Shown here: piece by piece, positions 2,862 to 63,656 of the stretch | Numbering within the stretch: position 1 is the stretch's first letter | How the letters are laid out: every line of letters starts with the position of its first letter | From: Pelagomonas calceolata | Lineage: Eukaryota > Sar > Pelagophyceae > Pelagomonadales > Pelagomonadaceae | Direction of reading: 5' to 3' | Assembly (NCBI GenBank): GCA_918797485.1 | Contig: CAKKNE010000001.1 | Coordinates: 6,076,001 to 6,140,000, forward strand | DNA length: 64,000 nt | The notes under the pieces: generated by a model | What the model saw: the letters and a program-made list of their open reading frames with translations, nothing else | Database searches by the model: none | Told to the model about the DNA's origin: nothing | Translations under genes and position numbers: made by a program

Positions 2862-3140
2862 GCTGCGACCGACGCTGTCGCCGTACGAGAGGTGGAAATC
2901 TCCTTCGCCGACACAATAAGCGGCCTCCTGTGCCTCGGCGGCATCGGTTTAGACGACGCCTCGGACGGCGACGAAGAAGAGATTTTGATCGATGGGCCGC
3001 GTGGGCGCGCCGACACGGTGCGCGCGTCGAGTTTGTCAATCCCTCTCGCCAGGGGCCCCTGCGTCTACCAATCTCCCGCGTGTACCTCCCCTGTGTCCAT
3101 GACGATGGCTTCCGAGCCCTCTCACGAAACCCGGAGCTAG
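2862..3140 (+). CDS. Possible small acidic protein, doubtful
   Basis: From ATG at 2862 (an in-frame ATG at 2850 is also possible) this reads about 92 residues. There is an ordered-looking N-terminal half (REVEISFADTISGLLCLGG), an acidic patch, then a Ser/Pro-rich tail. A TATA-like sequence lies about 40 bp upstream, which is why it is listed. The tail has no family resemblance and its stop codon falls inside the promoter motif at 3136-3157, so it could as well be chance. No function can be proposed. Confidence 0.25.
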   Translation, partial: AATDAVAVREVEISFADTISGLLCLGGIGLDDASDGDEEEILIDGPRGRADTVRASSLSIPLARGPCVYQSPACTSPVSMTMASEPSHETRS

Positions 3141-3157
3141 TGTGTAAAGACACTAGC
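3136..3157 (+). promoter_or_regulatory. CTAGC inverted promoter motif, copy 1
   Basis: GCTAG, 12 nt, CTAGC, with the typical core TAAAGACACTAGCAAGC. It lies 130 bp upstream of the UDP-glycosyltransferase ATG. The first half lacks the usual CGG after GCTAG. Confidence 0.6.
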
Positions 3158-3285
3158 AAGCCCAGGTGCTCGAGACGCGGGCGGCCTGGGCCGCTGCAGG
3201 CGTGTGCCGCAGGCGTCTCCGCTTGCTCGTAACGAGTTTGATTAGCACACGAACGGCTGGGTGCTGGCAATCAGCCCTGCGAGAC

Positions 3286-5345
3286 ATGCGGTGCTGCTTA
3301 CTGCTCTGCGCGGCGCTCGCCGCGGCGCCGGACCCGGAGGCCGCAGACACGGCACCCCTCGACGTCTTGCTCGTATCGGTCGGCCTCCACGGCCACGCCG
3401 TTCCCCTCGCGCGCCTCGCCCATCAACTGACAGAGCGCGGCCACCGCGCGACGCTCGCGACGCATAGTACAAAGGAAGCGAAACGCTGGGCGAAGGACGC
3501 GGGCGCGGAGTTTGTCTCATTGGGCGTGCTGGAACCATCACCACAAAAAAAGACGACGTCCATCAACGAGCGCGCGGCGGGTTTGATGGCTGCTGCTTTG
3601 AGGGGCTTCGGCGACGCGAAGGAGGAGAAGAAGGACGCCTGGGACGCGCTCGACGACGCTGATAATGAGGAGGAGGAGGGGCCGCTCGACGCTCGTAGAC
3701 TACTACTCGCGGCGCGGCGCGCGCGCCACGAGGCCGCCGCGCGCTACCTCCACTCTCATCAGAACGACTCCGAGTATGACGCGTCACTCATACCTCCATC
3801 GAAAACATTTGCGAAAGCGTCTCGGAAGGCCACGGCCTTGGGGGCGCTCGCTTGTTTGATGAATGAGTTGTATGTGCCACTCACAAGACCCGTCTACGAC
3901 GCTTTGTATGAACATTTAGCCAATGGTGGTAAAAGACCAGACGTCATCGTGGCGGACGTGGCGACCTTGGGCGCGCGCGACGCTGCGGATGTTTTTGACA
4001 TTCCCCTCGTCATCAACGCGCCTTCATTGTTGTATGGAAGAGCGGGCGGCGCGCCCGGCGCCGCTTTATCTTCCGGATCTTCGCGCTCCGAGAAGGCCCA
4101 GGCCGCGCTCGCGCCGAAACTGCTGGCGCTGGCGTCGTCTTCCGCATTAATGACCTCGAACCACGTCCGGCGCGCCGTCGGCCTGCGAATTCATTCGGGG
4201 CCCGACGAGCTCGTGCCGCCCGCGTTGCTGCGGCGGCCCGCTTCTGTAACGGACTTCCCGTGTGCCGCGCGCGCTTCATTACCACTAGATCCGCCGCCGC
4301 CGCCGCGCAACGGGACGTGCGCGAACGACGGCATCTGCGGCGCGCGGCCGCGCGAGCTCGTGCTCGCGAACACGGCGCCGGGCTTCGACCCCTTTGCTGT
4401 GCACCCGCCGCCGCGCGTCCTCGCGACCGGTCGGTACGCGGCGTCCCATCTTTTACGCCATCGACGCGACGGCGTAGTGGTTGTTGTTCTCGCGGACGGG
4501 TCGCGTCGATGGCGTGAGGGTGGTGTAGAGTCAGATGGGGCACGCTATCGCCGCGCCACGACAAAGACGCCAACGCAGGCCCGCTCCTCCCCGTCGACAT
4601 GGCGGCCTACAACGCGACCGCGCCGCCGGCGGCGCCCGCGTTGGTACGACGCTGGCTCGAGACCGCGGCGAAGGAGGGCCCCGGCGTCGTCGTCGTCTCG
4701 TTGGGACGGATGCCGCGCGTCGAGGGCTGGCAGGCCCACGCTTTAGTCAGGGGCCTGCAGCCGGACAAGGCGGGCAACGAGAGCGCCTGGCGCGTGCTCT
4801 GGGCCCTCGACGAGGATAGAAGAGATTCGCTGCCGCGCGAGCTGCCCGACGAGTTTAGGGTAAGGGGCCGCCTGCCGCTGCTGGCGACGATCGCGCAGCC
4901 CGAGGTCAAGGTCGTCGTGAGCCACTGCGGCGCCGGCGCGGCGATGGAGGCGCTCGCCTTCGGCAAGCCTTTGCTGTGTGTTCCGTTCTTTGGCGACCAG
5001 CGGGACGTCGCGCGGCGCGTCACCGACGCCGCGGCGGGTTTGTATATCGAGCCGCGGCGGCTGACGGAAGAGCGCGTGCGCGAGGCGGTATCCACAGTCG
5101 CGGGCGAGACATATAAGCGCGCGGCGGCGGCGGCGGCGGCGCAGCTCCGGGCGCCGGGCGGCACTGAAGCGGCGGCGGCGGCGGTCCAGGCCTGGGCGGC
5201 CCACGGGACGGTCTGCGGGCCCGACGTGGACCTGCCGTGGCACCGCGAGGCTGGTTTAGATAGACTCTGCGTCGCGCTGGCGGTGGTGATTTTGGTGGGC
5301 GCGGGCGCTTCGCGGGTGCTGAAGGCGCTGTCGGCGTATGCCTAG
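3286..5345 (+). CDS. UDP-glycosyltransferase, membrane-anchored
   Basis: Exons 3286-4433 and 4535-5345 join in frame to 652 residues. I chose ATG 3286 because it opens a signal peptide (MRCCLLLCAALAAAPD); an upstream in-frame ATG at 3166 would add an unlikely basic stretch. The N-terminal half has GT-B fold features (HGHAVPLARLAHQLTERGH, RPDVIVADVATLGARDAAD). The C-terminal half carries the UDP-sugar-binding region: VVVVSLG, then HCGAGAAMEALAFGKPLLCVPFFGDQ, which matches the GT1 signature. A hydrophobic helix near the C-terminus (LCVALAVVILVGAGAS) suggests an ER-type type I topology like animal UGTs and sterol glucosyltransferases. The acceptor is unknown. Confidence 0.85.
4434..4534 (+). mobile_element. 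Introner-like intron in the UDP-glycosyltransferase
   Basis: A 101-nt GT-AG intron containing CGCCATCGACGCGA and, facing it, CGCGTCGATGGCGTGA, the introner core in both orientations. It ends GGTGGTGTAGAGTCAG; GGTGGTGTAGAGTC also occurs in the RRP5 intron. The ends differ from the CTGTGTGG family, so this may be a second introner family. Splicing restores ATGR|WGTLSP in frame. Confidence 0.6.
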
Positions 5346-5410
5346 AGGGGTGGCCGTTTTCAATTTCTAATTCTCATTTTAAGATGCTCTCCCCAGCTGC
5401 ACCGAGAAAA

Positions 5411-6289
5411 TCAAGCGTCGATTCCGAGATTAGCGCACATATGATTGTACCACATCTCGGCGGCCTCGTCGCCGGCCTCCTTGCGAACAATCTCGCGGCA
5501 CATCTGCATGTTCAGCTTCTTATTCTTGTCCGAGAACCGGTCCTGCTCCTGGAGGTGCTTGGTCTTGTCCTCAGCATAGGGAGTGCCCTCCGGGTCGAAG
5601 TCTAGCTTGAGCAGGGCCCAAACCCACGCCGTCGCCGTCGAGTAGAGGGCTTTGCCAAATGTTCCGTTGCCCGCGGAACGCATCATGCTAACGAAGAACT
5701 CCTTGTCCAAGAGCGACGCCAACGTGACTATTTCTTCGGCGAAAAGAACTTGGAGATCGACCGGCGTCTTCCCGTCGTCCTTCGGGACACCGGGTAAAGG
5801 GGGGAGGTGTTTCTCGAATAGGTTGCAAGAGGCGTTGCAAGGGTCAACGATGCTGTCGGACATACGCGAGATGGGTAGGGACTTGACGGGCAGCGCGTGG
5901 TCGATGGTTTCCACCCACTTGGTCGCGGCTTTCTCGAATTTGCATATATTGAACGACACGTCCTCCGCCGCGAGAGCTTTGCGAACTTCGACCTCGTACG
6001 CGGTGTAGGCCTCGTGGTGCTGCGCATAGGGCGACTTCACATTAACCATATAGGGCGGGAACTGGACGATGGGCATCTCCTTGAGGCTGCCACTACCGCC
6101 GCTGGCGGCGCGGGGGCGCTTCTTCGGGGGTGCGGTGGAAGCCATGAGTTTCAGATGAGGCTGGGCGGTGCTGCCGTCGCGCGGGGCAGCGGAGACTCGG
6201 GCAGCCGCGATGGCAACCAGGCACATGAGACAGACGCCGGCCAAGGCTAGTGGCCCCGCTCGCCGGCTCAAACCTCTCGCCCGGGCCAA
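5411..6289 (-). CDS. Unidentified protein with signal-like N-terminus
   Basis: A 292-residue single-exon frame. From the first ATG it has an Arg-rich start and a hydrophobic helix (LALAGVCLMCLVAIAAA), fitting a signal peptide or anchor. An alternative start at 6145 (MASTAPPKKRPRAAS) would give a soluble protein with a KKRPR nuclear-type signal. The body is globular and alpha-helical looking, with Cys in CNASCNLFEKH and a C-terminus MWYNHMCANLGIDA. It ends 66 bp from the UDP-glycosyltransferase stop, tail to tail. I recognise no family. Confidence 0.65.
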   Translation of the reverse strand: MARARGLSRRAGPLALAGVCLMCLVAIAAARVSAAPRDGSTAQPHLKLMASTAPPKKRPRAASGGSGSLKEMPIVQFPPYMVNVKSPYAQHHEAYTAYEVEVRKALAAEDVSFNICKFEKAATKWVETIDHALPVKSLPISRMSDSIVDPCNASCNLFEKHLPPLPGVPKDDGKTPVDLQVLFAEEIVTLASLLDKEFFVSMMRSAGNGTFGKALYSTATAWVWALLKLDFDPEGTPYAEDKTKHLQEQDRFSDKNKKLNMQMCREIVRKEAGDEAAEMWYNHMCANLGIDA

Positions 6290-6530
6290 GACTCGTCACC
6301 ATACCTCCTCTTGGTGTTTTTTGCGAGCGGTACGAACACCGGCTGCTCAGGTTCAGGCGATGAGAGGCTGTAAAAAACGCGTGCCTCAGCTCGACATAAC
6401 TCATCGGCACGGTCCACAAATTTGCGAGCGATCGCACTGGTGAACTGCTCGTTACATAAAAAAAATTTGAGGCGCCGCGCTGCGCCTGTCAGTAGAATCA
6501 GCTAGCCTGCAGCAGAGGTGCTACATAGCA

Positions 6531-7460
6531 ATGGCCGAGCCAGACATCGAAGAGCACGTCTCCTTGGACCTGCACCACCTGAGCGCCACGTACAAAGTGC
6601 CCGCGGAAACGGGCGAAGCGCTGACGGCGCAGGCGCGCGACGCGACGCAGCTGCTGGTCGCCGGGTTGTTTGCGCTGCCCGTCGAAAAGACGAACGAGGG
6701 CCCCGTCATCACGCTGCCCGCCGCGACGACGGCGCTGCCGCGCGAAAAGCCCGTGCCCCAGCCGCGCGCCGAGACGAAGTGGGAGAAGTTCGCCAAGGAG
6801 AAGGGCATCGCCCCCAAAAAGAAGAGGTCCCGCATGGCCTGGGACGAGGAGCGGGAGAAGTGGGCGCCGGCCTGGGGCTACGACAAGGTGGGCGGCGACG
6901 AGGCGGACGCGCCGATCATCGAGGTCTCCGAGCGCGACGCGGCCGAGGGCGTGGACCCGCGCGAGGAGGCGCGCGCCGAGAAGAAGGCGCGCGTCGCCAA
7001 GAACGCCGCGCAGCGCGACGCCAACGACGCGCGGGCCCGCAAAAAGAAAAGAGGGCCCGAGCCGGAGGGCGTGCCGTCCGGCCTGCCCGTCGACCTGCAA
7101 GGGAAAAAGAAGGGCAAGGCCGGCGTCAAGGGCGCGCTCGAGCGCGCCCAGGTCGCGACGGCGTCGCTCGGCCAGTTCGACGCCGTCGTCGCCGGCGAGG
7201 GCAAGCGGCCGTCGGGGCCCGCGCGCGGCCGCAAGCGCCAGTTCCTGAGCGTCGCGTCCGCGCGGGGCTCCGACGCGGCGCGCGCCTCGGCCATCCTCCA
7301 GGACCTCGAGCGGCCGCGCGCGAAGCGGCCCGGCAAGGGCGAGGCGGAGCGCATGGACACGCACGACGGCGAGCTGCCGAACGAGAGCGGCTTCAAGCGC
7401 AAGAAGGGGAAAGCCGCCGCGGGCAAGTCGAAGAAGATCACGAAGAAGCGTGGCATGTAA
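6531..7460 (+). CDS. RRS1: Ribosome biogenesis regulatory protein RRS1
   Basis: A 309-residue single-exon gene. The N-terminal third has the family hallmark KWEKFAKEKGI, then RMAWDEEREKWAPAWGY, where other Rrs1 proteins have KWEKFA..KGI and a WDE..W.PRWGY motif. The rest is Lys/Arg-rich (KKKRGPEPEG, GRKRQFLSV, a very basic C-terminus KSKKITKKRGM), as expected for a nucleolar protein. Rrs1 works with Rpf2 to bring 5S RNP into pre-60S particles. Length is in the normal range for plants and fungi. It shares its upstream region with the gene on the other strand ending at 5411. Confidence 0.92.
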   Translation: MAEPDIEEHVSLDLHHLSATYKVPAETGEALTAQARDATQLLVAGLFALPVEKTNEGPVITLPAATTALPREKPVPQPRAETKWEKFAKEKGIAPKKKRSRMAWDEEREKWAPAWGYDKVGGDEADAPIIEVSERDAAEGVDPREEARAEKKARVAKNAAQRDANDARARKKKRGPEPEGVPSGLPVDLQGKKKGKAGVKGALERAQVATASLGQFDAVVAGEGKRPSGPARGRKRQFLSVASARGSDAARASAILQDLERPRAKRPGKGEAERMDTHDGELPNESGFKRKKGKAAAGKSKKITKKRGM

Positions 7461-7541
7461 GAAACTGTGACACAACATTAACCATTCACTAGTAGGGCCG
7501 GGAGCAGCACGCCATCGATGCGTCGCGTCGACAGCTTCAGA

Positions 7542-8540
7542 TCACCAGCCGTGCGCGCTGTACGGCTTGATGCTGCGGAGCCTCGAGATCCGGAGCCGCT
7601 CGGCCCGGCTGTCGACGACGGCTTCGCGGATGACCGCCATTTCTCCCTCGCCGACGCCCGCGCTCCGACGGCCGACGCCTGCCCAGACGACGCTCGAAGA
7701 CCCGCGGCCCGCCGTCAGGAGGTGTGAGACTTTCGAATTGGTGCGCCCGTCCTCGAGGTACTGCTGCTCCGGGAGCATAGCCGTAGAGTTCACGATCTTG
7801 GGTTTCCCGAACGCATCCGAGTATTCCAGCACGGCACCAAACACAAGGTCGCTCTCCTCACGTCGTCGCGTCGCGCCTTTCGAGATCGGCAAGTCCTCGT
7901 ACTCCGCCACCGGCTTGAGTCGTCGAGCGTCCTCGTGGTCGGTGAGCGGCGGCGGCAGCAGCATCTCCACGAATTCGACGGCGTTTTTCTTGCGCTCTGC
8001 TATGCACTTCCCCAGTGCATCGCCCGCGACGGCGTGGTCGGTAGCACTGCCCACGGCTCGCAGCGCCGTGCCGCGCGGACCCTCGATTATCATCGGTGAG
8101 GCGTCGCTGGGCGCTTTGGACGTCGCCTGCCGCACGAGCGCCGCGACGCTCGGGCTCTGCCACGGCTGGGCAGCCAAAGCTCGGTGGGCGGTCTCCCGGG
8201 CGCGGCGCCGGCGCCGTGGTGGATCTGCAGAGGAGGGGCGGCGGCGGGGCCGGCCGCGCGCGGTCGAGGGGCCCAGCATCGATCGATGGCTCGTTCTAGG
8301 CTGCCCACTGCCTGATTTATCTCCGTGGCAGCAGCGCCTTGCAAAGCGCTCTGCCGCGCGCGCGGCTAGCGGGCTCCAAACCAGGAGTAGTCGGCGGGGA
8401 CTGATTGCTGCCGAGAGATCCGCCGGGCTCTTAGAATGGCGCGCTGCTTTCTTGCGATGGAGCCCGCGTCGGCGCGCCCCGCGGCGATGGACCGGGCCCA
8501 CACCTGTCTCCAGAGGTAGCAGGCGTACGAGGCCAGCCAC
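7542..8540 (-). CDS. Unidentified protein; first part of the model uncertain
   Basis: The frame is open for 332 codons. The C-terminal 190 residues look like true protein: MIIEGPRGTALRAVGSATD, AERKKNAVEFVEMLLPPP, SDLVFGAVLEYSDAFGKPK. The first 140 codons are Arg/Pro-rich and unlike it. In another minus frame around 8265-8355 a helix-like run, ALQGAAATEINQAVGSLERA, appears and stops being convincing at ATCGATCGATG, a sequence close to the introner core. I infer one or two introns between 8050 and 8450 that I cannot place. Start and exon count are therefore open, and no family is recognised. Confidence 0.5.
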   Translation of the reverse strand: MAGLVRLLPLETGVGPVHRRGARRRGLHRKKAARHSKSPADLSAAISPRRLLLVWSPLAARAAERFARRCCHGDKSGSGQPRTSHRSMLGPSTARGRPRRRPSSADPPRRRRRARETAHRALAAQPWQSPSVAALVRQATSKAPSDASPMIIEGPRGTALRAVGSATDHAVAGDALGKCIAERKKNAVEFVEMLLPPPLTDHEDARRLKPVAEYEDLPISKGATRRREESDLVFGAVLEYSDAFGKPKIVNSTAMLPEQQYLEDGRTNSKVSHLLTAGRGSSSVVWAGVGRRSAGVGEGEMAVIREAVVDSRAERLRISRLRSIKPYSAHGW

Positions 8541-10783: not shown

Positions 10784-10793
10784 ACGCCAGCGG

Positions 10794-13559: not shown

Positions 13560-14138
13560 TTACGTATACAGCCGGTCGTCGCGCGCGTACTCCTCGATGC
13601 GCTCCTGGAGCGTCGCGGCTCGACAGACGCAGTACCTTCCGAGGCAAGTGCCGCCGTGCCAGGACAGGTCGACGAGGAGCGGGATCGCGCCCAAGCGCCT
13701 ATTTTTCTTCTGCACATACGAAACCAATGACGCGCGATTCGTGATCGGCCGGTCCGCGACGTTGATAAATTTGAGGATGTGCGAGTAGCAGTCGGCGGGG
13801 AGCTGGGGGTGCTGCGGCAGCGGCGGCGTCGCGTGCGACCGCCGTCGCTCCTTCCACGCGTTGACGATGGCCTCGCCGCTGATCATCGGCGGGCCCGCGT
13901 TGACGAGCTCGCAGACGCGGCCGGCGGCGGGGCCGGCGCCGGGCTCATCGTCTGCCCGCGGCGACAATAACGGCCCGGGCCCGGCGAACGCGAGCGGCTC
14001 CGGCTTGGTCCCCATGCCCGCCGCGGGCGCCGGCGGGAGGGCCTGCTGGAGGTTGCCTTTGGGGCCTTGAATTTGAACAGCGCGGTGTGGTGCGCACGGC
14101 CGGCAGAATCGAGGTACCGGCTTCATGGTCCGCATCAA
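13560..14138 (-). CDS. Unidentified 192-residue protein
   Basis: A single-exon frame whose first half is Pro/Gly/Ala-rich and probably disordered. The second half looks folded: PADCYSHILKFINVADRPIT, then SLVSYVQKKNRRLGAIPLLV. A similar stretch, ELIVYVKYRNRRLGAPAMIP, occurs in the tail of the cyclin gene at 17838-19100, so the two may share an undescribed short module. Four Cys near the C-terminus (GGTCLGRYCVCRA) could bind metal. It converges with the transporter 177 bp away. Confidence 0.55.
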   Translation of the reverse strand: MMRTMKPVPRFCRPCAPHRAVQIQGPKGNLQQALPPAPAAGMGTKPEPLAFAGPGPLLSPRADDEPGAGPAAGRVCELVNAGPPMISGEAIVNAWKERRRSHATPPLPQHPQLPADCYSHILKFINVADRPITNRASLVSYVQKKNRRLGAIPLLVDLSWHGGTCLGRYCVCRAATLQERIEEYARDDRLYT

Positions 14139-14479
14139 CCGGCTGTTCTAACCAGCGTTTGTCCCAAAATATGATCGTGCACCGCGACGAACGTGCTGTT
14201 TGAGCAACAATGCTCTGCGATGCCAGTCAGCCTGGGCCGGCCCTGCAGCCGCAGGGCGCCCAGGCACCAGGACGACTCCCGGAGACGCGTTTAGAACTGC
14301 TTTGAACTCTGCTCCGCGTAATGAGCTAGCGGCGTGAAGTCACTAGCAAAAGCAAAGCAGCAAGCGCGTGCGCCAAACTGGTCGCGATTGCAAGCATTCC
14401 TACAAACTTGGGTGCCGCTGGGCTCCTATTTGCAGTGAGAACGCAACGCACACGAGAACGCCATCGCTGCGGCTCCACA
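14139..14479. other. Divergent promoter region, 341 bp
   Basis: It holds one copy of the CTAGC promoter motif at 14325-14347, about 130 bp before the GPI8 ATG. Nothing else is recognisable. Confidence 0.6.
14325..14347 (+). promoter_or_regulatory. CTAGC inverted promoter motif, copy 2
   Basis: GCTAGCGGCGTGAAGTCAC followed by TAGCAAAAGC. The arms GCTAG and CTAGC are 13 nt apart. The central TAAGACA is changed to GAAGTCA. Confidence 0.65.
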
Positions 14480-26803: not shown

Positions 26804-26933
26804 TTTGAGCGCTTATTTGTTGATTTGGTTGCACGAAATCGCTGTGCAGCAGCCAGAGGTATATAAATGAGCAATGCCACAATTTGCGCACAGCGGATAA
26901 CGGTGAAATGGCCAGTACAGCCGAGGATGCGGG

Positions 26934-26958
26934 GCTAGCGGCAGTAAGACACACTAGC
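26934..26958 (+). promoter_or_regulatory. CTAGC inverted promoter motif, copy 3
   Basis: GCTAGCGGCAGTAAGACAC, then ACTAGCAAGC. It lies in the 285-bp region between the divergent fibrillin and secreted-protein genes, about 130 bp from each start codon. An introner-core sequence (CGCCATCGACGCGTGCG) sits at about 26993. Confidence 0.75.
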
Positions 26959-27088
26959 AAGCGGTGGGCTCGAGGCGCAAAGCTGCCCCAAACGCCATCG
27001 ACGCGTGCGCTGGTCCGCATCGATGGACGAGAAGCTGCCCTGAGCCAATAGATGCCAATGCGAACACACATGAGGTGATCTGAATACT

Positions 27089-29831: not shown

Positions 29832-30569
29832 TCACGCCCCCGGCCACTTCATCATGACGTGCTGGCTGTCCACGAGGACGTACTCCTCGTCCTCGATGTC
29901 GCATTCCGTCACGTCGAGGTCCTGGAAGCGGACCGTGTCGCCGACGGCGCAGGGCTGCGGCGCGCGCGAGCCGTCGCGCAGGACCCTGCCGGGCCCGACC
30001 TGGACCACCTCGCCGACGACCGACGCCTTGTCCGCCGCCTCGAGGCCCAGGAACAAGCCCGACGTCGTCTGGCCCTTCTCCTCGCGGACCTTGATCAGGA
30101 TGTTGCCGCCGATCGGCCGCGCGTTCCCCGACGTCAGCTCGCCGTTCCAGCTCATCTGCACGTCCCGGTCCTTCAACAGCGTGTGGGACTCGCGCTGGTA
30201 CTTGACGTTCGCGCCCGCGTAGCGGCCCCACATGACGTTGTCGCCCGCCTTGCAGTCGATGGGTAGCACCGTGCCGCTCTCGGGGTGCAGCGCGCCCGGG
30301 CCGACCGTCTGGACGACGCCCGTCGGCGGCGGCTCCTTGGCTTTGTCGGAGATCATGATGCCGCCGCTCGTCTTCTCGGCCGTCTCGTCGACCTTGACCA
30401 GCAGGTAGTCGCTGAGCGGCTCGAGCGGCCCGCCGACGTCCTCGTTGTCGATGAGGTAGGCGTCGCGGAGCCGCGTCGTCACCCGCATTGGTCTGCTGTA
30501 GGTGAACGTCGCGGCGTGCCTCAAGAGGAGCGCTGCGGCGACGGCGCGTCGTCGTGCGTGCGGCGCCAT
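29832..30569 (-). CDS. Plastid co-chaperonin Cpn20 (tandem Cpn10 domains)
   Basis: 245 residues. After a signal-type leader ending HAATFTYS comes a double Cpn10 protein. Domain 1 is at about residues 50-140 (LEPLSDYLLVKVDETAEKTS, GGIMISDKAKE, GVVQTVGPG, NVMWGRYAG). Domain 2 is at about 150-245 (ARPIGGNILIKVREEKGQTT, SGLFLGLEAADK, GEVVQVGPG, YVLVDSQHVMMKW). The paired GroES-like domains with mobile loops (TSGGIMI and TTSGLFL) identify the chloroplast Cpn20/21 type, which caps the Cpn60 folding chamber, for example for Rubisco. It ends 25 bp from the pyroglutamyl peptidase stop. Confidence 0.92.
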   Translation of the reverse strand: MAPHARRRAVAAALLLRHAATFTYSRPMRVTTRLRDAYLIDNEDVGGPLEPLSDYLLVKVDETAEKTSGGIMISDKAKEPPPTGVVQTVGPGALHPESGTVLPIDCKAGDNVMWGRYAGANVKYQRESHTLLKDRDVQMSWNGELTSGNARPIGGNILIKVREEKGQTTSGLFLGLEAADKASVVGEVVQVGPGRVLRDGSRAPQPCAVGDTVRFQDLDVTECDIEDEEYVLVDSQHVMMKWPGA

Positions 30570-31031
30570 GGCTCTGCTAGGGCTGCACTCTGTGTTGAGG
30601 TCGCTCTGTGACCAGTTTCGAGCTCGTGACGCTTCAGCTGCGTGTGCGAAGATGTTCTAATACAGTGATGCAGTCAGAGGGACCTCGTTGCAACCGTACA
30701 GCGTCCTGCAACCTTGGCAGTCGCTCTGCAGTCGAGCTATGCAAGCAGCCCTCGACCGCGCGGTTTTAGAAGCCTCGCGCGCCGGTACCCCTGAATCGCC
30801 ACGCGGCGAGATCTATCGGCAGTTTGGTACTGCGGGCTAGCGGTAAGACACTAGCCAGGCAAAAAAAAATCTCCGCAGACGCTCAGGACGCTCCTGTGCC
30901 GCACCGTTCGACGTGACACAACGTCAGAAATCTCGCAGGACAGCCCTGCTAAGGCCGAGACCAGGAATACGCAGCAGTTCCGCCCGCAATAGACTCCACA
31001 GGGCCACAAGCTCCAGCAGACCAGGAACAGT
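30570..31031. other. Divergent promoter region, 462 bp
   Basis: It lies between Cpn20 and CHMP5 and carries one full CTAGC motif at 30836-30855. An A8 tract at about 30862 follows it. Nothing else is recognised. Confidence 0.6.
30836..30855 (+). promoter_or_regulatory. CTAGC inverted promoter motif, copy 4
   Basis: GCTAGCGGTAAGACACTAGC, the tightest form, with arms only 10 nt apart. It lies 177 bp before the CHMP5 ATG and 266 bp before the Cpn20 ATG. Confidence 0.75.
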
Positions 31032-32779: not shown

Positions 32780-32873
32780 GCTGGCTAGGCTGTCGTCTGA
32801 GTATATATCTGTCGGGCCGCTGCAATGCAGGGGTCCTAATAACTCGATCTTCGCAGCGAATTTTGGAGATTGT

Positions 32874-32896
32874 GCTAGTGTCTTACAGCCGCTAGC
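32874..32896 (-). promoter_or_regulatory. CTAGC inverted promoter motif, copy 5
   Basis: On the minus strand it reads GCTAGCGGCTGTAAGACAC and then TAGCAC. It lies 95 bp upstream of the eIF4B-like ATG and in the same orientation as that gene, the only full copy at a non-divergent promoter. Confidence 0.7.
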
Positions 32897-32917
32897 TAAT
32901 CGACGCGGCGCGAATGA

Positions 32918-33046
32918 TAGTCCTAGCACCGTAACATCGACGACGCGAATGAAAGAAGCGGCCCGCGCCCGCCGCCGATGAATCGGCGACGCGCGGTGTC
33001 TCCCCCCCAGGGGCTCCGCCCACTAGTCCTAGCACCGTAACATCGA
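32918..33046. repeat. 23-bp direct repeat, two copies
   Basis: Identical 23-bp copies at 32918-32940 and 33024-33046, 106 bp apart start to start, contain CCTAGCACCG. They lie just upstream of the CTAGC motif copy 5. Confidence 0.75.
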
Positions 33047-33093
33047 CCATCAAGCTCAGACTTGTACATTATTACTCGAAGAACAACAAGAAG

Positions 33094-35661: not shown

Positions 35662-35777
35662 TTGTTTAGTTATTGCATAGTTTTTACGTGTGCAGCCAGT
35701 GCACTGGTTGGCAGAGCGTTGCCGCAGCTCTTGACCCCCGCTTGCGGCTGCTTCACCTCCACTTCGATTATGAAATC

Positions 35778-35801
35778 GCTAGCGGCATGTAAGGCACTAG
35801 C
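35778..35801 (+). promoter_or_regulatory. CTAGC inverted promoter motif, copy 6
   Basis: GCTAGCGGCATGTAAGGCAC then TAGCATCAAGC. It lies in the 197-bp gap between divergent genes, 58 bp before the BspA-like ATG and 117 bp before the fusion-protein ATG. Confidence 0.72.
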
Positions 35802-35858
35802 ATCAAGCTCAACTTTTGCCAAGATCGCAGAGCGTAGGCTGCCCAAAGTTGCAGCACG

Positions 35859-39244: not shown

Positions 39245-39432
39245 CTTGGTGCAGCTGTTGCGGCGTGCGCGTGTGCTGCACGGCTGTGAAGGCGGCGGCT
39301 TTGTGTGCGGTCCCTCAGGAGCTCCTCTGCCACAGCTCTCGGTCTGCAACGGTTCAGGCACGGCGCCAGTCGTCCGCCACCAGCGCTGCGATGTGAATGC
39401 TGCGTTTTTGGCCCGGAGTCGCGCGCGGCTGG

Positions 39433-39457
39433 GCTAGCGGCCGTAAGACACTCTAGC
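39433..39457 (+). promoter_or_regulatory. CTAGC inverted promoter motif, copy 7
   Basis: GCTAGCGGCCGTAAGACAC, then TCTAGCAAGC, followed by a further AAGCTAGGC. It lies in the 330-bp gap between divergent genes (39244 and 39575), 118 bp before the plus-strand ATG. The rest of the gap shows only a TATA-like CATATATCG at about 39489. Confidence 0.75.
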
Positions 39458-39574
39458 AAGCAAGCTAGGCGATTCGCGGCCCTCAGCCCATATATCGTTC
39501 GATACACGGCATCATAGCCTCACCGAGCTATTTCCGTCGCTACTCGCATCGCTGCGCACAGCTGCGCCCCCAGG

Positions 39575-43994: not shown

Positions 43995-45539
43995 TTACAC
44001 ACAAATCTTCGTCGCCCAGTCGTCGACCGACGCCTCGGCGGCGACCATGCGAGCGAGGTGTCGCTGCGCGGCCGTTGAGACGCGCGTGTCGCGCTCGGGC
44101 TTCCCCAGGTTGTTCTTGCTCTCGAAGTTCGTCATCACCGGTCCCGCGAGAACGACGAATTGTTGCGGCAGCGGCGTCAGGTTCGGCAGGTTAGAGCCTT
44201 CAAACACCGCATCGAGGGCGGCGCCGTCCAAGACGCCTCGCGCGTGCGCGACGAGCGCCGCGACCAACGTATTGACGAAGAGCGGCTCCGGCTGGCGCAT
44301 CGAGATGGACACGCGGCACCACGCGGCCCGCGGCGCGTCCTGCGCCGAGCAGCGCACGCGGCCTAATTTTGCGGTCTTGAGCCAGCCCGCGTCTTTGAGC
44401 TCGACGGCGCGGCGCGCGGCGTGGGCCATGCGCCGCAACGTCGCTTCGTCTACATATCGCGCTGCCTCGAGCGACGCAAACGGCGTGGGACAGCCGACGT
44501 GTTCCGCGGACGCCGTCGGCGCGGGAGCCGCCGACGAGGCCACGGGCGACGCGCCGCAGCACTTCCAAGGCACGAGCGCGATATACCGCTCAGCCTGGCG
44601 CCGCTCCGCCGCGAAGGGCCGGTCGGCAACGTCGGCGCCCTGGACGTCGACGTCCGGCAGTCTCTCCCGCAACCGGCGCACGAGAGACGGCAGATCCGCG
44701 AGCATTCGCTTGGGCACGTTGATCGCGACGCGGTTGCAGATCGCCGCGGGGGCGACGCGGAGGGGCACGGCCCAATTCAGGTGGCCGTGCTGGCCGACGA
44801 CGTGGTGCAGCACCTCTTGTAAACGAGGCGGTTCGTCGTAGCTGACCGTGAAGCACAGCGCGGCCGTCGGCTCCACCGCCGGGCGCGAGACGACGCCCTC
44901 GCCGCACGGCGTCGCCCGCAGGTGCGCGAAGAGCTTCGACCGCGAGGCGAAGGGCGCCTGACATTTGTCGCACGTCGCCGCGACGGCGGACTCCTTGAAG
45001 CGCTTGCGGATGCGCGCCGCGAGCTCGTCCTCCGAGGCATCTAAAGGCGGCCAGCGCGCGCCCGGCCCCGACACGGACTGGCCGTATTCTTCGAGGTAGC
45101 AGATCTGCTCTCCCCTGAACTCGAGCCGCGCGACTTGACAAAAACGCACGAGCTTCTCTGCCTTGTCGGCGCGCTTCTCCCGAAAATTGTCAAACTCCGC
45201 GAGCCATTTGACCACTGCTACCGGTCTCGTCGCATCGATGGCCAAGTCCCGTTCGACGTGGCGGAACCGAATACTCGTTTGTTTGCCGCAGATCTGCCGC
45301 AGCCAGTACTCTCGGATCTGCTCTCGTCCCACGAAGGTGCCGTTGCGGTCGAAGGCGCGCTCGATGTAGACTGCATCCTCGGTAAATAAAGCAGCGATGC
45401 GGTCCGCGTCTTGCGTGGTCCATGCTTCGCCGTATTCGCTGACTGCATGAATTACAGTGGTGCGGGCGAGCATGCTGCGTGCTTGCAGTGGTGCTGCTGC
45501 AGGAGTGCTTGCTTCTAGCGGCCGTAGGTGTGCGCACAA
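43995..45539 (-). CDS. NTF2-like domain / zinc finger / degenerate TruA-type pseudouridine synthase fusion
   Basis: 514 residues in one frame; an alternative start is the second Met (45473). About residues 25-160 form an NTF2/SnoaL-like fold (WTTQDADRIAALFTEDAVYI, REQIREYWLRQI). A single zinc finger follows, CDKCQAPFASRSKLFAHLRA with a Cys ending (C2HC). The rest aligns with eukaryotic PUS1/TruA: DLPSLVRRLRERLPDVDVQG and PLFVNTLVAALVAHARGVLD match conserved TruA blocks. At the position of the catalytic RTD motif the sequence reads LRVAPAAICNRVAINV, so the Asp appears to be lost. I infer a non-catalytic RNA-binding role. The combination is not one I recognise. Confidence 0.65.
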   Translation of the reverse strand: MCAHLRPLEASTPAAAPLQARSMLARTTVIHAVSEYGEAWTTQDADRIAALFTEDAVYIERAFDRNGTFVGREQIREYWLRQICGKQTSIRFRHVERDLAIDATRPVAVVKWLAEFDNFREKRADKAEKLVRFCQVARLEFRGEQICYLEEYGQSVSGPGARWPPLDASEDELAARIRKRFKESAVAATCDKCQAPFASRSKLFAHLRATPCGEGVVSRPAVEPTAALCFTVSYDEPPRLQEVLHHVVGQHGHLNWAVPLRVAPAAICNRVAINVPKRMLADLPSLVRRLRERLPDVDVQGADVADRPFAAERRQAERYIALVPWKCCGASPVASSAAPAPTASAEHVGCPTPFASLEAARYVDEATLRRMAHAARRAVELKDAGWLKTAKLGRVRCSAQDAPRAAWCRVSISMRQPEPLFVNTLVAALVAHARGVLDGAALDAVFEGSNLPNLTPLPQQFVVLAGPVMTNFESKNNLGKPERDTRVSTAAQRHLARMVAAEASVDDWATKICV

Positions 45540-45900
45540 TTCTCGGACGCGGCGTAAGTATGAGCACGAATGCCAGTGAAGCGCTTGCAGTTTTCTGCAC
45601 GGCTACGCGCGCTCACGTAGCTAGCGGACTTTAAGACACTAGCGTTCCCCTGGGTCTCTGTTCGGCGGCAAGCGCTACGGCCGCTAACCCCTTCATCTGA
45701 GGTGCTGGTAGTTCATAGGATTTGTTCGCAGACCCACCGAAACGATCCGCGTTATAGCGCGGTCGCACCAGGAGACCTGTGCCTCCAATCCAGGCAAGAG
45801 GCTCCTTGTGGCGCGTCGCGCGGGGACGCTACGAGGCGCAGCCGCGCCGTCGCGCTGTCGCCGCGGACACGAGATAGCAGCGCTCGTGAATTCGTGAAAT
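45540..45900. other. Divergent promoter region, 361 bp
   Basis: It lies between the NTF2/TruA fusion and the SAM/U-box gene. It holds a full CTAGC motif at 45620-45643. Nothing else is recognised. Confidence 0.6.
45620..45643 (+). promoter_or_regulatory. CTAGC inverted promoter motif, copy 8
   Basis: GCTAGCGGACTTTAAGACAC then TAGCG. It lies 81 bp from the fusion-gene start on one side and 258 bp from the U-box gene on the other. Confidence 0.72.
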
Positions 45901-54914: not shown

Positions 54915-55220
54915 CTTTCCAGCGCGGCGCCGGCGGCGCTCGGTTTTGTTGGTCGGCACTGTTGGGGGTGAAACGGCCCCAAGTACGCAGCGCGCGAAGC
55001 TGCTGAAGCGTACAGCGCGACGCAGCGCCTGGCGGTCTTCTGAAGCCGCTACAGCGCTGTCCAAGTCGCCGCGAAGCACACAAAAAAGCGACCTGCGCCG
55101 CAACAAACGAGTTTTTGTCGAGGGCCGAGCGGGTCGCGTCCGGTGCTCACGCACCCGTCCAGCCGCCTTAGAGACTTCTCCTGGAGCTGCTCTGGGGTTT
55201 GGAAGGGAATCCGATTTGTT

Positions 55221-55245
55221 GCTAGTGTCTTACAAGGCCGCTAGC
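55221..55245 (-). promoter_or_regulatory. CTAGC inverted promoter motif, copy 9
   Basis: On the minus strand it reads GCTAGCGGCCTTGTAAGAC, then ACTAGCAAC. It is oriented toward the kinesin gene, 307 bp before its ATG. Confidence 0.75.
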
Positions 55246-55363
55246 TAATAACAGCACTGCAAGCGGGCACTTTTTACAGCCTGCTAGCACGTACAAGCGC
55301 GTTTCGCACGTTTCTCACTCATTTGTGATCGTGCCGCAATTGCAATCCCACTCGTGCGCCTGA

Positions 55364-55471
55364 AGAGCGTCCCAGAGCCCTGCTGCATAGAGGCTGCACT
55401 CAGCTGCACACGGCGAGCAAGCGGACAGCAGCACTCCAGTCGGCGCTTGAAAGAGCGTCCCAGAGCCCTGC
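55364..55471. repeat. 20-bp direct repeat upstream of the plastid-protein gene
   Basis: AGAGCGTCCCAGAGCCCTGC at 55364-55383 and 55452-55471, 88 bp apart, preceded in both by GA or GAA. They are probably leftovers of a local duplication or paired regulatory sites. Confidence 0.7.
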
Positions 55472-55501
55472 ACTGAAGGCTGAACACTTGACAAGCCAAT
55501 T

Positions 55502-56362: not shown

Positions 56363-56389
56363 AGACATACCGAGTAATCTCCTTACTTA

Positions 56390-59544: not shown

Positions 59545-60827
59545 TTTTTAGGCCTCCGAAACCTATCCAGCAGCTTCCTCGACCGCGTCGACGGCTCCTT
59601 TTTGATGATCCCCGGAGTGTCGTAGAACTCCTTCATCGCCGCCATGCGGATGTCCGCCTCGTCGAGCGTGCCGCTCCGGCACACGTCCAACTCATCAAAA
59701 CGCGCCAGGATCGCGTCGACGTCCGTCCGCTCGACGGTGCCGGCCTCGACGAGCACGGAGGACAGGTACTCGACGCGCGTGATTTCCGACCCCGCGCCCT
59801 CGATGGTCGACATCTCCCGGATCATTTCTGGAGAAAGTTCCCTGGCTAGGACCTTTTCCTTCTTTGCGGCGACGGCGCGCGCGGCGACGTGGCCGATGCA
59901 GTCCGTTAAGAGCGTCGTGGAAATGAGGAGATACACGACGGAAAAGTGCCTCGACCGGGCGTGGTTCAGCGGCAGGTCGCCGTAACCGACCGTGGTGGCC
60001 GTGACCACCGACCAGTATAACGCGTCCACGATGGGGTGCTCCCAGCCGCCTTTCCCGCCCCAGTAGCCCTCGGAGAACGCCATGTACGTCGCGCCCACCA
60101 CAATGTTCAGAAGCAATAGCGCAAAGGACGCCAGTTCCTTCCAGGGCTTCGTCGTCTTGTCTCCGGAAGTTTCGGCCTGCTCCTTCAGGCGCTGGGCCAG
60201 CCGCTCTTCCGCCGCGCTCAGGTTCTTCGCGACGGCTCCTACTAAAATGGAGGCCACTAATGTAACACCAATACCAATATAGGCCGTCGCGAACAGCTTG
60301 CCGGACCGCGTCTTCGCGCAGTAGTCGCCGTACCCCACCGTCGTTAAGGTAACGACGCCGTAGTACAAACTTTCTAGAATGGACCAGCCCTGCGTCCGGT
60401 GCCAGAAGGCCCAGGCTCCTAGGAAATAGGCGGCCAACGCCATGAGCTGCCACCCTATTTTATCTGTGAGCGGTTCGAGCAGCTTGCCGAGCGGCCGCAG
60501 GATCTCGCCCATCTTGCTCAGTTGCGGCCGGATCGACCACTTCTTGCCCACTCGATTCAACACGCGCGTCGCCGACTTCATCGTCCGCGAGTTGGCCGAG
60601 CTCTTGACCAGGCGAGACCCCGCCTTCACGAGGTTCTTACCCTGGAAGGTCAGCAGCTTGCCGACGCGTCGCCCAACGACGCCGGCGCCGCGCCGCGGCA
60701 CCGGGAAGCCCATTGGCAGCGGTGCGAGGAGTGGTGCTCGCTTGGTGTGGGGTGCTATGAAGGCTGCTGCTCTCCATGTCGTGATTGCGAGCGCCACAGT
60801 CAGTCGCATGCATCCAGCGCTCTTCAT
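59541..60827 (-). CDS. Two-pore K+ channel (TPK), probably plastid/thylakoid
   Basis: 428 residues. Two P-loops have complete selectivity filters: VVTLTTVGYGDYCA at about 165 and VVTATTVGYGDLPL at about 280, each flanked by hydrophobic helices (LMALAAYFLGAWAFW, GIGVTLVASILVGAVA, ASFALLLLNIVVGATY). An EF-hand-like loop lies near the C-terminus (FDELDVCRSGTLDEADIRMA), as in plant TPKs regulated by Ca2+. The N-terminus MRLTVALAITTWRAAAFIAP has a signal peptide and the AFxAP junction, so plastid import is likely. In plants TPK3 balances thylakoid voltage. It may start at 60827 or at the second Met, 60809. Confidence 0.92.
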   Translation of the reverse strand: MKSAGCMRLTVALAITTWRAAAFIAPHTKRAPLLAPLPMGFPVPRRGAGVVGRRVGKLLTFQGKNLVKAGSRLVKSSANSRTMKSATRVLNRVGKKWSIRPQLSKMGEILRPLGKLLEPLTDKIGWQLMALAAYFLGAWAFWHRTQGWSILESLYYGVVTLTTVGYGDYCAKTRSGKLFATAYIGIGVTLVASILVGAVAKNLSAAEERLAQRLKEQAETSGDKTTKPWKELASFALLLLNIVVGATYMAFSEGYWGGKGGWEHPIVDALYWSVVTATTVGYGDLPLNHARSRHFSVVYLLISTTLLTDCIGHVAARAVAAKKEKVLARELSPEMIREMSTIEGAGSEITRVEYLSSVLVEAGTVERTDVDAILARFDELDVCRSGTLDEADIRMAAMKEFYDTPGIIKKEPSTRSRKLLDRFRRPKN

Positions 60828-60937
60828 GGCTTTTGCAATAATGTGGAGGCAGTGACGGACACCTCGAAGTCTCCGACGAGTCGTCGCAGTCGAATGTTGC
60901 TGCTCTTTGCCTCCGAGTTATGTAGCGTAGTAACATA

Positions 60938-60942
60938 CTAGC
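60938..60942 (+). promoter_or_regulatory. CTAGC site in a divergent promoter, doubtful relative of the motif
   Basis: AGCGTAGTAACATACTAGCT (60924-60943) has a TAACATACTAGC core that only loosely fits GTAAGACACTAGC. It lies in the 225-bp gap between the K+ channel and FUT-like genes. Confidence 0.3.
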
Positions 60943-61052
60943 TTCACGCAAAAAAAGTGGCACTCAAGTCCATTGACGCAGTGCGCATCGACGCGAGAGG
61001 CGGCTGCCCTTGGTATCGCCACGCGACGTCGCGGTGGCACCGCTGTCGAAGC

Positions 61053-62522
61053 ATGCGGCTGTCCGCCGTGACGCTATGCATCGTGGGCGTGGCTGCCCGC
61101 GGCCGCCGCCGCCGCATCCCGTACGAGAAGAAGGTGCACGTCCAGCCGCCGCCGCTACCGCATGACGACGGTACGCCGTGGGGCTGCGGACCGATGCCCA
61201 GCAACAGCACGTCATATTACCTGCGCGACTTACTGCAGAACTGGATCGCGAAGCAACAATTTCAGCGGAGGCACACGGTGTACCAAGGTGGAGGTAGGTC
61301 TGTGGTGGTGATGGCGAAGCGGCACGGTCTAGGGAACCGACTGAACAATGTGATCGGGGGCTTCATGCTCGCGCTGGCGACAGGACGAGCATTGGTCATA
61401 AACTGGCCGCCGTCCGCGTGTCGGAACAAGCGGAACTGCGACCCTACGTCCATCGATGATTTATTCGACCCGCCCGTCGGCGTGAAGTGGGGGAGGATGC
61501 AAGGCTGGAACAAGGACCTGGACGCAATGTGCGCGAACGGGCCCTTCGTGATCAGTCAAAACGGCCACGACGCCGTCCAGCAGGTGTTGGATATGGACCT
61601 GGGGAATTATCACGAGCAACCGAAGATGGTCTGCGCGGTCTGTGATCGGAGCTGGTCCTACGGCGTGAGTTGCAACCCTTTATTGCGGTGCGCGATGCCG
61701 ACGCCGTGGTACGTCTACGGGCTCCTGCAGCGGTGGCTCTTACGACCGAAGCGGGCCGTCGTCAACAGGGTGCGACAGACGCTCGCGAACCACACGTGCG
61801 CCGTGGGCGTCCACCTCCGCAAGGCGGACAACAGTAAGACGAAGTGGGCCACGGAGGAGTTGTTACGGGAGACCTACGCTTCCGCCCTAAAACGGCGGCC
61901 CGAGTTTAAGAACGGAGACCTGCGCTACGGCATCTACGTGGCGGCCGACGGCGAGTCGACGCAGACGAAGAAGCGTATTGAAGCGTTCGCGCGGTCCGTC
62001 GGCGCGCCTTTGTTGGAGCGCGCGGCGCGCTTCAAGGCCTCCCGAGATTCCGTGCGCGCCATGCAGGACGCGCTGGCCGAAAACTACGTCTTGTCGTCGT
62101 GCGTCGAGATCCTGCCGCGCGGCTCGGGCGCGTCGACGTTCCACGATCTGGCCGTGGCACGGGCGGCCTTCGAGCAGGGCTGGGAACAAACTCGCGTCGA
62201 CGCCTTCGTGCACAAGTCGGAGCCCTCGGACCACGCCTTGGTGCCGGCGCGCTGCCCGCCGCGGACGGGCGAGACGGCCGACGCCGTCACGCGGTGCCCC
62301 TGTTTGTCGAACGAGACGAGCTACCGGGACCGCGTCGCGCCGTGGCCCGGGCCCGATCTGGTCTGGGCCCACCCCTGGCGCGACCCCTACGAGAACAGCA
62401 CGCGGTCGGCGCGCATGCGCCTCGTCAAGGAGCGGATCCGGGCGCGCCGCGAGGCGCGGGACGCGGCGCGCATGTCGAGCATCGCGGGGGCGGGCGTCGC
62501 GGGGACGCACGGGACGTTTTGA
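61053..62522 (+). CDS. Fucosyltransferase-like enzyme (GT-B fold, NodZ/FUT type)
   Basis: 489 residues from MRLSAVTLCIVGVAARGRRR (ATG 61053), a type II anchor or signal sequence. An in-frame upstream ATG at 60957 would hide it. The N-terminal motif KRHGLGNRLNNVIGGFMLAL resembles the G.GN.......A..LA..TGR region of alpha-1,6/alpha-1,2 fucosyltransferases and O-fucosyltransferases. VGVHLRKADNSKTKW corresponds to the GDP-binding HxRxxD motif with a Lys. Later RGSGASTFHDLAVARA fits the acceptor/donor loop (S..S.F...A). Several Cys (SACRNKRNC, CPCLSNETS) suggest a luminal enzyme. Donor GDP-fucose is inferred. Confidence 0.8.
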   Translation: MRLSAVTLCIVGVAARGRRRRIPYEKKVHVQPPPLPHDDGTPWGCGPMPSNSTSYYLRDLLQNWIAKQQFQRRHTVYQGGGRSVVVMAKRHGLGNRLNNVIGGFMLALATGRALVINWPPSACRNKRNCDPTSIDDLFDPPVGVKWGRMQGWNKDLDAMCANGPFVISQNGHDAVQQVLDMDLGNYHEQPKMVCAVCDRSWSYGVSCNPLLRCAMPTPWYVYGLLQRWLLRPKRAVVNRVRQTLANHTCAVGVHLRKADNSKTKWATEELLRETYASALKRRPEFKNGDLRYGIYVAADGESTQTKKRIEAFARSVGAPLLERAARFKASRDSVRAMQDALAENYVLSSCVEILPRGSGASTFHDLAVARAAFEQGWEQTRVDAFVHKSEPSDHALVPARCPPRTGETADAVTRCPCLSNETSYRDRVAPWPGPDLVWAHPWRDPYENSTRSARMRLVKERIRARREARDAARMSSIAGAGVAGTHGTF

Positions 62523-62539
62523 GTTTTTAAGTTTCTGTA

Positions 62540-63598
62540 CTACTTCCAGTCCCCGACGCAGTCGAGGTAGTGGAGGAGATCCGCGAGGTTTTTGGTAGCG
62601 ATGCCTGCGAAGCTCAACTTCACGGCGTCGCCGCGGATGCCGAAATGCGTCGGGCAAACGCGGCCGTCCCCATCTTGATAAGAACCAGGCAGGGGAATAG
62701 GCGCTGACTTTGTTATAATCTCGGCTTCGCAAACTGGCGTCGCCATGGAACGCATGTTCACCAACCGTCGGGCCTCCAGGCACATCGCAAATTCGTGTTC
62801 AGGGGTGTCATAATAACCCTCGAGATTTATATGGTCCTTAGACAGTTGCTCCTTGTGAGGGTGTTGAAAATTGAGCCGCAGTCTATCCTCAAACACTAAA
62901 AGACTCTTCCCGTCCTCGCGCACGAGAAAGACCCTGGCGCTGCCAACAAGTCTTTCCAACAAGTCTTCCCACTCATCTAAGACCGTCCATACCCCACCAG
63001 CAGCTCGTTCAGCCTCCTCCGTCCACTCTTCGGTGGGCCTGGCGGCAAGGAAATGAGCCTCTTCAGGGCGGAGCGCTTGATTGAACATCCATCCTTCCGA
63101 CAGTTCGTAATAGTTTATCCCCGTCCTGCTTATTACCCTGTCGTGGTTCGCGCCGGTGAGTTCGAGTTTCGCACAAGTATGGGCGTCCTCGACACCATAA
63201 TCCCATGCTTCGACATCAGTAAGCTGCCCGCGCTGCACGAGGCGTCCGCCGCAGTCCAGCTTAATTTCGCAGACGACTTCACATGTGCGCGTCACGACGG
63301 TGTCACGAGGGCGCTGCCTCGACTGCTGTGCGAGGCTCGTCAGGACGCGCAGCGGGTGCGTGGCCGCGAGGCGTCTCTTGACGAACTCGCTGCCCAGCAC
63401 GGGTAGCTGTTCCTCGAGCGCCTTGAGCACCGTGGGATCCGTCACCGTCGCGGTGCGCTTCGACGTCGCGCACAGCGCTATGAAATCGATAGCAGGCGTG
63501 GCCTCGACCAGGGCAGCCCCACAGGCAGCCAAGACATCAGCTATTGATGGATGTGGCCTCTCATCATGACTAATGGACGTCATACCCTTTTTTCGCAC
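62540..63598 (-). CDS. Unidentified 352-residue protein
   Basis: Single exon; start at 63598 (MRKKGMTSISH) or 63583 (MTSISHDERPHPSIADVLAA). No signal peptide. The sequence looks globular: VLAACGAALVEATPAIDFIA, then CATSKRTATV, which recalls the helix-turn of F-box or BTB-linked proteins without a clear match. Beta-rich parts follow (VVCEIKLDCGGRLVQRGQLT, ARVFLVREDGKSLLVFEDRL). It ends YLDCVGDWK. No catalytic motif is evident. It converges with the FUT-like gene, 17 bp between stop codons. Confidence 0.65.
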   Translation of the reverse strand: MRKKGMTSISHDERPHPSIADVLAACGAALVEATPAIDFIALCATSKRTATVTDPTVLKALEEQLPVLGSEFVKRRLAATHPLRVLTSLAQQSRQRPRDTVVTRTCEVVCEIKLDCGGRLVQRGQLTDVEAWDYGVEDAHTCAKLELTGANHDRVISRTGINYYELSEGWMFNQALRPEEAHFLAARPTEEWTEEAERAAGGVWTVLDEWEDLLERLVGSARVFLVREDGKSLLVFEDRLRLNFQHPHKEQLSKDHINLEGYYDTPEHEFAMCLEARRLVNMRSMATPVCEAEIITKSAPIPLPGSYQDGDGRVCPTHFGIRGDAVKLSFAGIATKNLADLLHYLDCVGDWK

Positions 63599-63633
63599 TC
63601 GTTGTGATTAAAATCTCGAACCGTCGGAAGCTT

Positions 63634-63656
63634 GCTAGTGTCTTACTAATGCTAGC
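63634..63656 (-). promoter_or_regulatory. CTAGC inverted promoter motif, copy 10
   Basis: On the minus strand it reads GCTAGCATTAGTAAGACAC, then TAGCAAGC. It lies in a 107-bp gap between divergent start codons (63598 and 63706), so one motif must serve both genes if it is a promoter element. Confidence 0.75.

Follow-up and report, generated by a model that had tools for sequence, protein, structure and literature searches.

The DNA analysed here is a 64,000-nucleotide stretch of the genome of Pelagomonas calceolata, a very common marine alga (the window; G000:C1:6076001-6140000), whose intergenic spacers carry ten copies of a recurrent, asymmetric motif (Table 1). The genes beside these copies are functionally mixed, their Pfam matches including Cpn10, Snf7, kinesin, U-box, eIF-4B-like and Peptidase_C13, a mixture which fits the expectation for a general element. 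At least one neighbour has a Pfam domain at eight of the ten sites, none being found at 3136, where one neighbour was examined, or at 63634. For scoring, the motif was written as GCTAGCGG - N0..5 - TAAGACACTAGC, with 20 scored positions and a threshold of 17/20 for a strict copy. Unless a genome-wide count is given, for which the genome (G000; 32,445,274 bases in 8 contigs) was searched, frequencies refer to a 314-kb sample, approximately 1% of the genome, comprising the window, C1:1,000,001-1,200,000 and C3:1,000,001-1,050,000. The available text on the RCC100 assembly of this species gives 32.4 Mb in six nuclear contigs, in addition to plastid and mitochondrion, with a guanine-plus-cytosine (GC) content of 63.6%, 16,667 genes and 0.45 introns per gene (PMC9481584).

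An earlier note on this DNA had reported ten full copies of the motif. All ten coordinates do carry it, matching 17 to 20 of the 20 positions, while decoys gave no match in 314 kb; "full" was nevertheless an overstatement, as the exact string put forward in the note has no match in the window and its AAGC tail is present in 15 of the 50 copies of the sample.

Table 1. Positions of the motif and of a second element, TGTTACGGTGCTAGGACTAGTGGGCGG; coordinates are those of the window unless a contig is named.
Feature	Position	Strand	Match and form	Setting
Motif	3136..3157	+	17/20, internal spacer 2	Divergent spacer 2397-3285; right-hand frame without Pfam domain
Motif	14325..14347	+	18/20, internal spacer 3	Divergent spacer 14136-14479; right, Peptidase_C13 gene
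Motif	26934..26958	+	17/20, internal spacer 5, extra AC in right half	Divergent spacer 26804-27088; left, PAP_fibrillin gene
Motif	30836..30855	+	20/20, short form, internal spacer 0	Divergent spacer 30489-31031; left, Cpn10 gene; right, Snf7 gene
Motif	32874..32896	-	20/20, internal spacer 3	Head-to-tail spacer 32780-33093; upstream of minus-strand RRM/eIF-4B-like gene
Motif	35778..35801	+	19/20, internal spacer 4	Divergent spacer 35662-35858; left, PseudoU_synth_2 gene; right, DUF285 gene
Motif	39433..39455	+	17/20, internal spacer 3, right end disrupted (CACTCTAGC)	Divergent spacer 39245-39574; left, His_Phos_1 gene
Motif	45620..45643	+	20/20, internal spacer 4	Divergent spacer 45474-45900; left, SnoaL-like gene; right, U-box gene
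Motif	55221..55245	-	20/20, internal spacer 5	Divergent spacer 54915-55501; left, kinesin gene
Motif	63634..63656	-	18/20, internal spacer 3	Upstream of minus-strand gene 62540-63583; ATG at 63706 open to window end
Possible weak right-half copy	60930..60942	+	2 mismatches, sub-threshold, uncounted	Divergent spacer 60828-61052
Second element	33016-33042	-		
Second element	32910-32936	-	partial	
Second element	C1:1,004,896			
Second element	C1:1,077,491			
Second element	C1:1,082,878			
Second element	C1:1,126,260			
Second element	C1:1,142,269			
Second element	C3:1,047,371			

The motif is abundant and dispersed. The genome-wide search that the note had proposed returned 1,741 matches to GTAAGACACTAGC (872 and 869 by strand) and none to its reversed control, and GCTAGCGG-N0..6-TAAGACACTAGC matched 506 and 449 times, again with an empty control. 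At a threshold of 17/20 the sample holds 50 copies, against none for 20 column-permuted decoys, and at 16/20 it holds 55, against a decoy mean of 0.7; the former figure extrapolates to approximately 5,170 copies genome-wide, or about one per 6.3 kb. Aligned copies yield the consensus GCTAGCGKYMTGTAAGACACTAGC, followed by A in 36 of the 50. Most of the information lies in the right part, where TAA and CACTAG are nearly invariant and 16 columns sum to approximately 25 bits, a value derived from copies that had been selected for matching; flank columns past the next few bases hold almost no information, and none is conserved among the 50 copies. Among the first 100 of the 955 strict copies found with this N0..6 pattern, which all lie on contig C1, 63 are 24 nt long, 27 are 23 nt, 5 are 22 nt, 4 are 20 nt and 1 is 25 nt, with none of 21 nt. 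Longer separations are rare, there being 13 matches with N7..30 genome-wide, of which four have a central CCTGTACAGG directly followed by TAAGACAC and three a central CCTGTACTTACAGG. An extended right end, GTAAGACACTAGGCATCCC, occurs in 34 exact copies genome-wide, and of the 20 loci inspected 10 run on as GGCATCCCTAG and 6 as GGCATCCCTAGCAAG, continuations which read as a 10-nt insertion in CTAGCAAGC; such insertions could represent alternative binding modes that are one helical turn longer. A pattern for the motif, CTAGCGGN{0,5}TAAGACACTAG, gave no match in a scan of viral contigs.

Among the same first 100 strict copies, none falls in a 409-kb stretch of contig C1, at about 2.52-2.93 Mb, within which the GTAAGACACTAGC search found one plus-strand 13-mer, at 2,695,656. 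This stretch may correspond to the low-GC centromere region known from descriptions of the genome.

The genomic context of the motif was assessed using gene models from a simple finder of our own (order-5 coding model, GT-AG introns, trained on long open frames), which called 189 genes in the sample from sequence alone. Divergent spacers hold 34 of the 50 copies and tandem spacers 12; of the other four, two fall in predicted introns and two at sequence ends. Counted by spacer, a strict copy is present in 33 of the 68 divergent spacers and 12 of the 47 tandem ones (45 of 115 combined), and in none of 68 convergent spacers or 252,377 coding bases; the statement in the note that no copy is coding thus held for the window and beyond it, and nothing approaching an equal frequency in coding or convergent DNA was found. 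When the motif sites were scrambled and the gene model was retrained, the tally was similar (34 divergent, 11 tandem, 2 intron, 1 coding and 2 ends), indicating that the location result is not due to the model having learned the motif. The two introns concerned are long (425 and 486 bp), and one also holds the second element, TGTTACGGTGCTAGGACTAGTGGGCGG, which is typical of tandem spacers; both copies are therefore probably located in miscalled spacers. At 11 bits, a matrix of the right half alone found matches in 41 of the 68 divergent spacers, where decoys averaged 0.9, and in 15 of the 47 tandem spacers, where they averaged 0.23; two further matches were coding, three intronic and one convergent. 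The link of the motif to promoters is thus strongly supported, whereas the description as a mark of divergent promoters was too narrow: in view of the tandem spacers that carry it, the motif marks promoters generally, and divergent promoters most of all. In the window itself, the gene models place eight of the ten copies, not nine, between divergent genes; the copy at 32874 is head-to-tail, and that at 63634, near the window end, has no called gene to its right but may be divergent, as the frame from the ATG at 63706 remains open up to that end.

Such partial occupancy of divergent and tandem spacers would also be consistent with a binding site for a regulator of an extensive yet specific programme, such as one tied to growth, to light or to the day-night cycle, and spacers without the motif contain other recurrent words, such as GGCTGCCC, although that word is also found in spacers with it. 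Set against this are the estimated genome-wide number of copies and the mixed, housekeeping character of the genes beside the window sites, such that we consider a specific programme possible but unlikely.

Within divergent spacers, 24 of 34 copies fall in the middle third (binomial p 1e-5; Kolmogorov-Smirnov test against a uniform distribution, p 0.01), at a median of 176 bp from the ATG. The distance of 60 to 310 bp from start codons given in the note describes the bulk of these values, for which the 10th to 90th percentile is 110-290 bp, but falls short of the full range of 57-739 bp, the upper extreme of which belongs to the 3136 site. The sequence polarity that the note had remarked upon is real, and is unrelated to gene direction, with 17 plus and 17 minus copies in divergent spacers and, relative to the genes, 6 of the same and 6 of the opposite polarity in tandem spacers; moreover, the two faces of the motif do not differ significantly in their distance to the ATG (p 0.13). 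A core promoter or initiator placed at the transcription start, as suggested in the note, would accommodate the promoter location and the strict polarity of the sequence, yet it appears very unlikely in light of the broad range of ATG distances, the independence of polarity from the gene, the sharing of one copy between two genes and the flipped orientation of one site in related DNA (see below). A hairpin acting at the RNA level is likewise disfavoured, because motif polarity does not track the gene. The central position and indifference to polarity could instead suggest an insulator or boundary element that parts two adjacent promoters; as the motif is also found in front of single genes, in 12 of the 47 tandem spacers, and is absent, at the strict threshold, from convergent spacers, which separate genes too, such a role would seem improbable.

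The ends described in the note as an inverted repeat are present, but the arms are not interchangeable, as is evident from the near-absence of symmetric forms: genome-wide, the right-right form occurs at 3 loci (backwards control 0) and the left-left form at 6 (backwards control 2), nine in total, whereas 314 kb alone contain 19 copies of the normal left-right form at comparable strictness, a number that scales to about 1,960. These numbers contradict the symmetric dimer site that the note had entertained, and a palindromic homodimer site was accordingly discarded.

For the comparison with related DNA, a motif scan of GTDB genomes yielded seven stretches (L034-L040), to which L042 was added from the metagenome-assembled genome (MAG) labelled Spirochaeta sp. 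MED672. Three of these (L036, L037 and L040; GC 0.40-0.45, one match each) were excluded as probable chance matches, and L035 as probably belonging to the same species (96% identity to the Pelagomonas genome over 949 of 3,000 bases). The remainder, namely L034, L038 and L042, which carry the Spirochaeta sp. MED672 label, and the last 339 bases of L039, labelled as a proteobacterium, align to the Pelagomonas genome with mostly 82-94% identity, and 70% in one piece of L042. On the basis of these alignments, the stretches are taken to come from at least one Pelagomonas-like lineage whose DNA was binned into bacterial MAGs. As a separate observation, bacterial MAG records thus contain Pelagomonas-like algal contigs, mostly 6-18% diverged, which constitutes contamination of the reference set.

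The sister stretches carry seven motif copies at 16/20 or better, and in all seven cases the Pelagomonas counterpart also has one (16-20 of 20). In this comparison of related DNA, which the note had advised, only three of the seven pairs (L038:4289, L042 and L039) are in register. The counterpart motif runs in the opposite direction at L038:5352; the two copies are offset from each other in the alignments at L038:7634 and L034; and at L038:2197, a repeat adjoins the motif in the sister only, both copies having CTAGGCATCCC in common. Two sister spacers stood outside the comparison with Pelagomonas, namely L034 3844-4429 (no motif, best 13/20) and L038 267-615 (weak, best 15/20). Rfam searches returned no match on the window at gathering thresholds and none up to E = 1 on L038:240-520.

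Flips and shifts of this kind, together with the occurrence of rare variants at unlinked loci (the 34 copies of GTAAGACACTAGGCATCCC and the four and three copies with two fixed central insertions), might be expected of a short mobile repeat or remnant that gathers in open promoter DNA without a function for the gene. This explanation is, however, scarcely probable: target-site duplication does not exceed a shuffled null for the 50 copies or for 19 extended copies, the outer flanks of the latter are unrelated (mean identity 0.28 and 0.27), the motif recurs in the counterpart of every sister site compared, and its position is central rather than random. A transposable element, including a miniature inverted-repeat transposable element, was rejected on the same lack of target-site duplication above the null and of shared flanks. 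A further reading, in which promoter sites spread by copying, would have a 20-40 bp asymmetric element multiply, flip and shift in open promoter DNA and yet stay required, a lineage-specific factor having taken over many divergent promoters; it draws on possible traces of copying, i.e., the variants identical at unlinked loci and the flipped sister site, and strikes us as doubtful.

Strand-biased words were found to flank the motif. Between motif and ATG, CATCG points toward the gene 44 times and away from it 6 times (31 versus 4 of 78 stretches), with no fixed distance to the motif, the separation ranging from 0 to 278 bp. This oriented word (e.g., ACGCCATCGC) is a candidate core promoter or 5'-leader signal. 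Replication origins often lie in open promoter DNA, and a long, information-rich and dispersed motif might accordingly be an origin or other chromosomal mark that merely happens to fall in promoters; its density is greater than would be expected of origins, and it is tied to start codons and to outward CATCG elements, rendering such a role most improbable.

The arrangement supports the description of the motif as a promoter-region element that is central in divergent spacers, occurs in either polarity, is strictly asymmetric and recurs in sister DNA. We propose, with moderate confidence that derives mainly from location and orientation, that it is the recognition site of a putative abundant, sequence-specific general regulatory factor of Pelagomonas. 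One abundant protein would bind the asymmetric motif as a single long footprint and keep the spacer free of nucleosomes, and the opened spacer would in turn give access to a separate core promoter on either side; where genes lie head to tail, the motif would serve a single gene. The outward-pointing CATCG-type element would then be a candidate directional core promoter beside the motif. That a promoter region is shared in this manner is suggested mainly by the placement of one polarity-free element between two outward-pointing sets of oriented words.

Several observations weigh against this proposal. A strict copy is missing from about half of the divergent spacers, and even at 11 bits the right-half matrix matches 41 of 68, so that the motif is not universal; at 18 bits, that matrix retains one coding and one convergent match. 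The CATCG bias is also seen in upstream regions without the motif (46 versus 18; 33 versus 14 of 102), the word was picked post hoc among the most strand-biased 5-mers, and others are biased beside it (CGCCG, 91 versus 31; ACGCC, 50 versus 10). GC content dips only slightly near the motif, from 0.63 at 150-200 bp to 0.57 at 3-25 bp, such that no strong nucleosome-excluding tract is visible. As regards the sister DNA, at least one flank of each of the three in-register pairs is itself conserved, partly or well, and 2 of the 14 sister and Pelagomonas copies reach only 16/20, a level at which decoys average 0.7 per 314 kb. Furthermore, since about half of divergent spacers hold the motif, its presence at 7/7 sites (chance roughly 0.5^7) is suggestive rather than decisive. 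The gene model also placed five of the seven sister sites in introns; as the reading frame stops at the predicted donor in four of these five, and three pieces of L038 match different families (4HBT, PseudoU_synth_2 and EamA), we read these sites as probable miscalled spacers.

An information-rich element present in about half of divergent promoters would offer a handle on the organisation of transcription in a compact stramenopile genome, and its recurrence in sister DNA, in some cases flipped or shifted, would bear on the turnover of promoter systems. The motif also suggests where two-way promoters could be built in the pelagophyte/stramenopile group. The author of the note knew of no described element of this kind; likewise, literature listings on Pelagomonas genomes and introners, pelagophyte and stramenopile promoters, bidirectional promoters with general regulatory factors, divergent algal gene pairs and cis-regulation in Aureococcus showed none in their titles and opening lines of abstracts. 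Of 582 papers that contain one or more of five strings of the motif, the 20 listed deal with unrelated matters; similarly, the terms "promoter" and "motif" were not found in the available main text of Pelagomonas papers, including PMC9481584.

The spacers hold further recurrent sequences. The word GGCTGCCC is over-represented in divergent spacers without the motif (22 versus 1.6 expected; 15 of 35 spacers) and in those with it (14 versus 1.2 expected; 8 of 33 spacers), and is possibly the site of another promoter factor. The second element, TGTTACGGTGCTAGGACTAGTGGGCGG, has eight copies at 21/27 or better (10 shuffled decoys, 0), some of which head a dispersed repeat of roughly 155 bp. Seven copies lie in tandem spacers, two of them in one spacer, and one in a predicted intron; all are collinear with the flanking genes, and six of the eight are at most 160 bp from the upstream coding end. 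Sister stretch L038 has two copies, at 299 and 2050, one of which was not seen in the Pelagomonas counterpart. From this placement, TGTTACGGTGCTAGGACTAGTGGGCGG is a candidate terminator or read-through barrier. Lastly, for the DEAH helicase encoded in the window, the nearest named proteins listed are those of the pelagophytes Pelagophyceae sp. CCMP2097 (51%) and Chrysophaeum taylorii (49%), and one further match reaches 99%.

Among known systems, the closest include the sites of the budding-yeast factors Reb1, Abf1 and Rap1, which are short, precede numerous unrelated genes, frequently within divergent promoters that two genes share, and act in either orientation with separate core promoters alongside. 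Like these general regulatory factor sites, the Pelagomonas motif is found upstream of mixed genes in either polarity, a likeness known here from sequence arrangement; it differs from them in its sequence and in its greater length of 20-24 bp. Long asymmetric sites enriched in promoters, bidirectional ones included, are also known for vertebrate ZNF143, a multi-zinc-finger protein, and YY1, and the oriented CCATCG word bears a passing resemblance to the CCAT core of YY1. Within the stramenopiles, recurrent promoter words are likewise represented by the oomycete core promoter elements INR, FPR and DPEP, which, according to the available text on Phytophthora infestans, are located at or near the transcription start and are commoner in forward orientation (PMC3599244). 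In contrast to these, the Pelagomonas motif shows no orientation preference and stands at a greater distance from the ATG, and it is the CATCG element beside it that behaves more like INR, FPR and DPEP.

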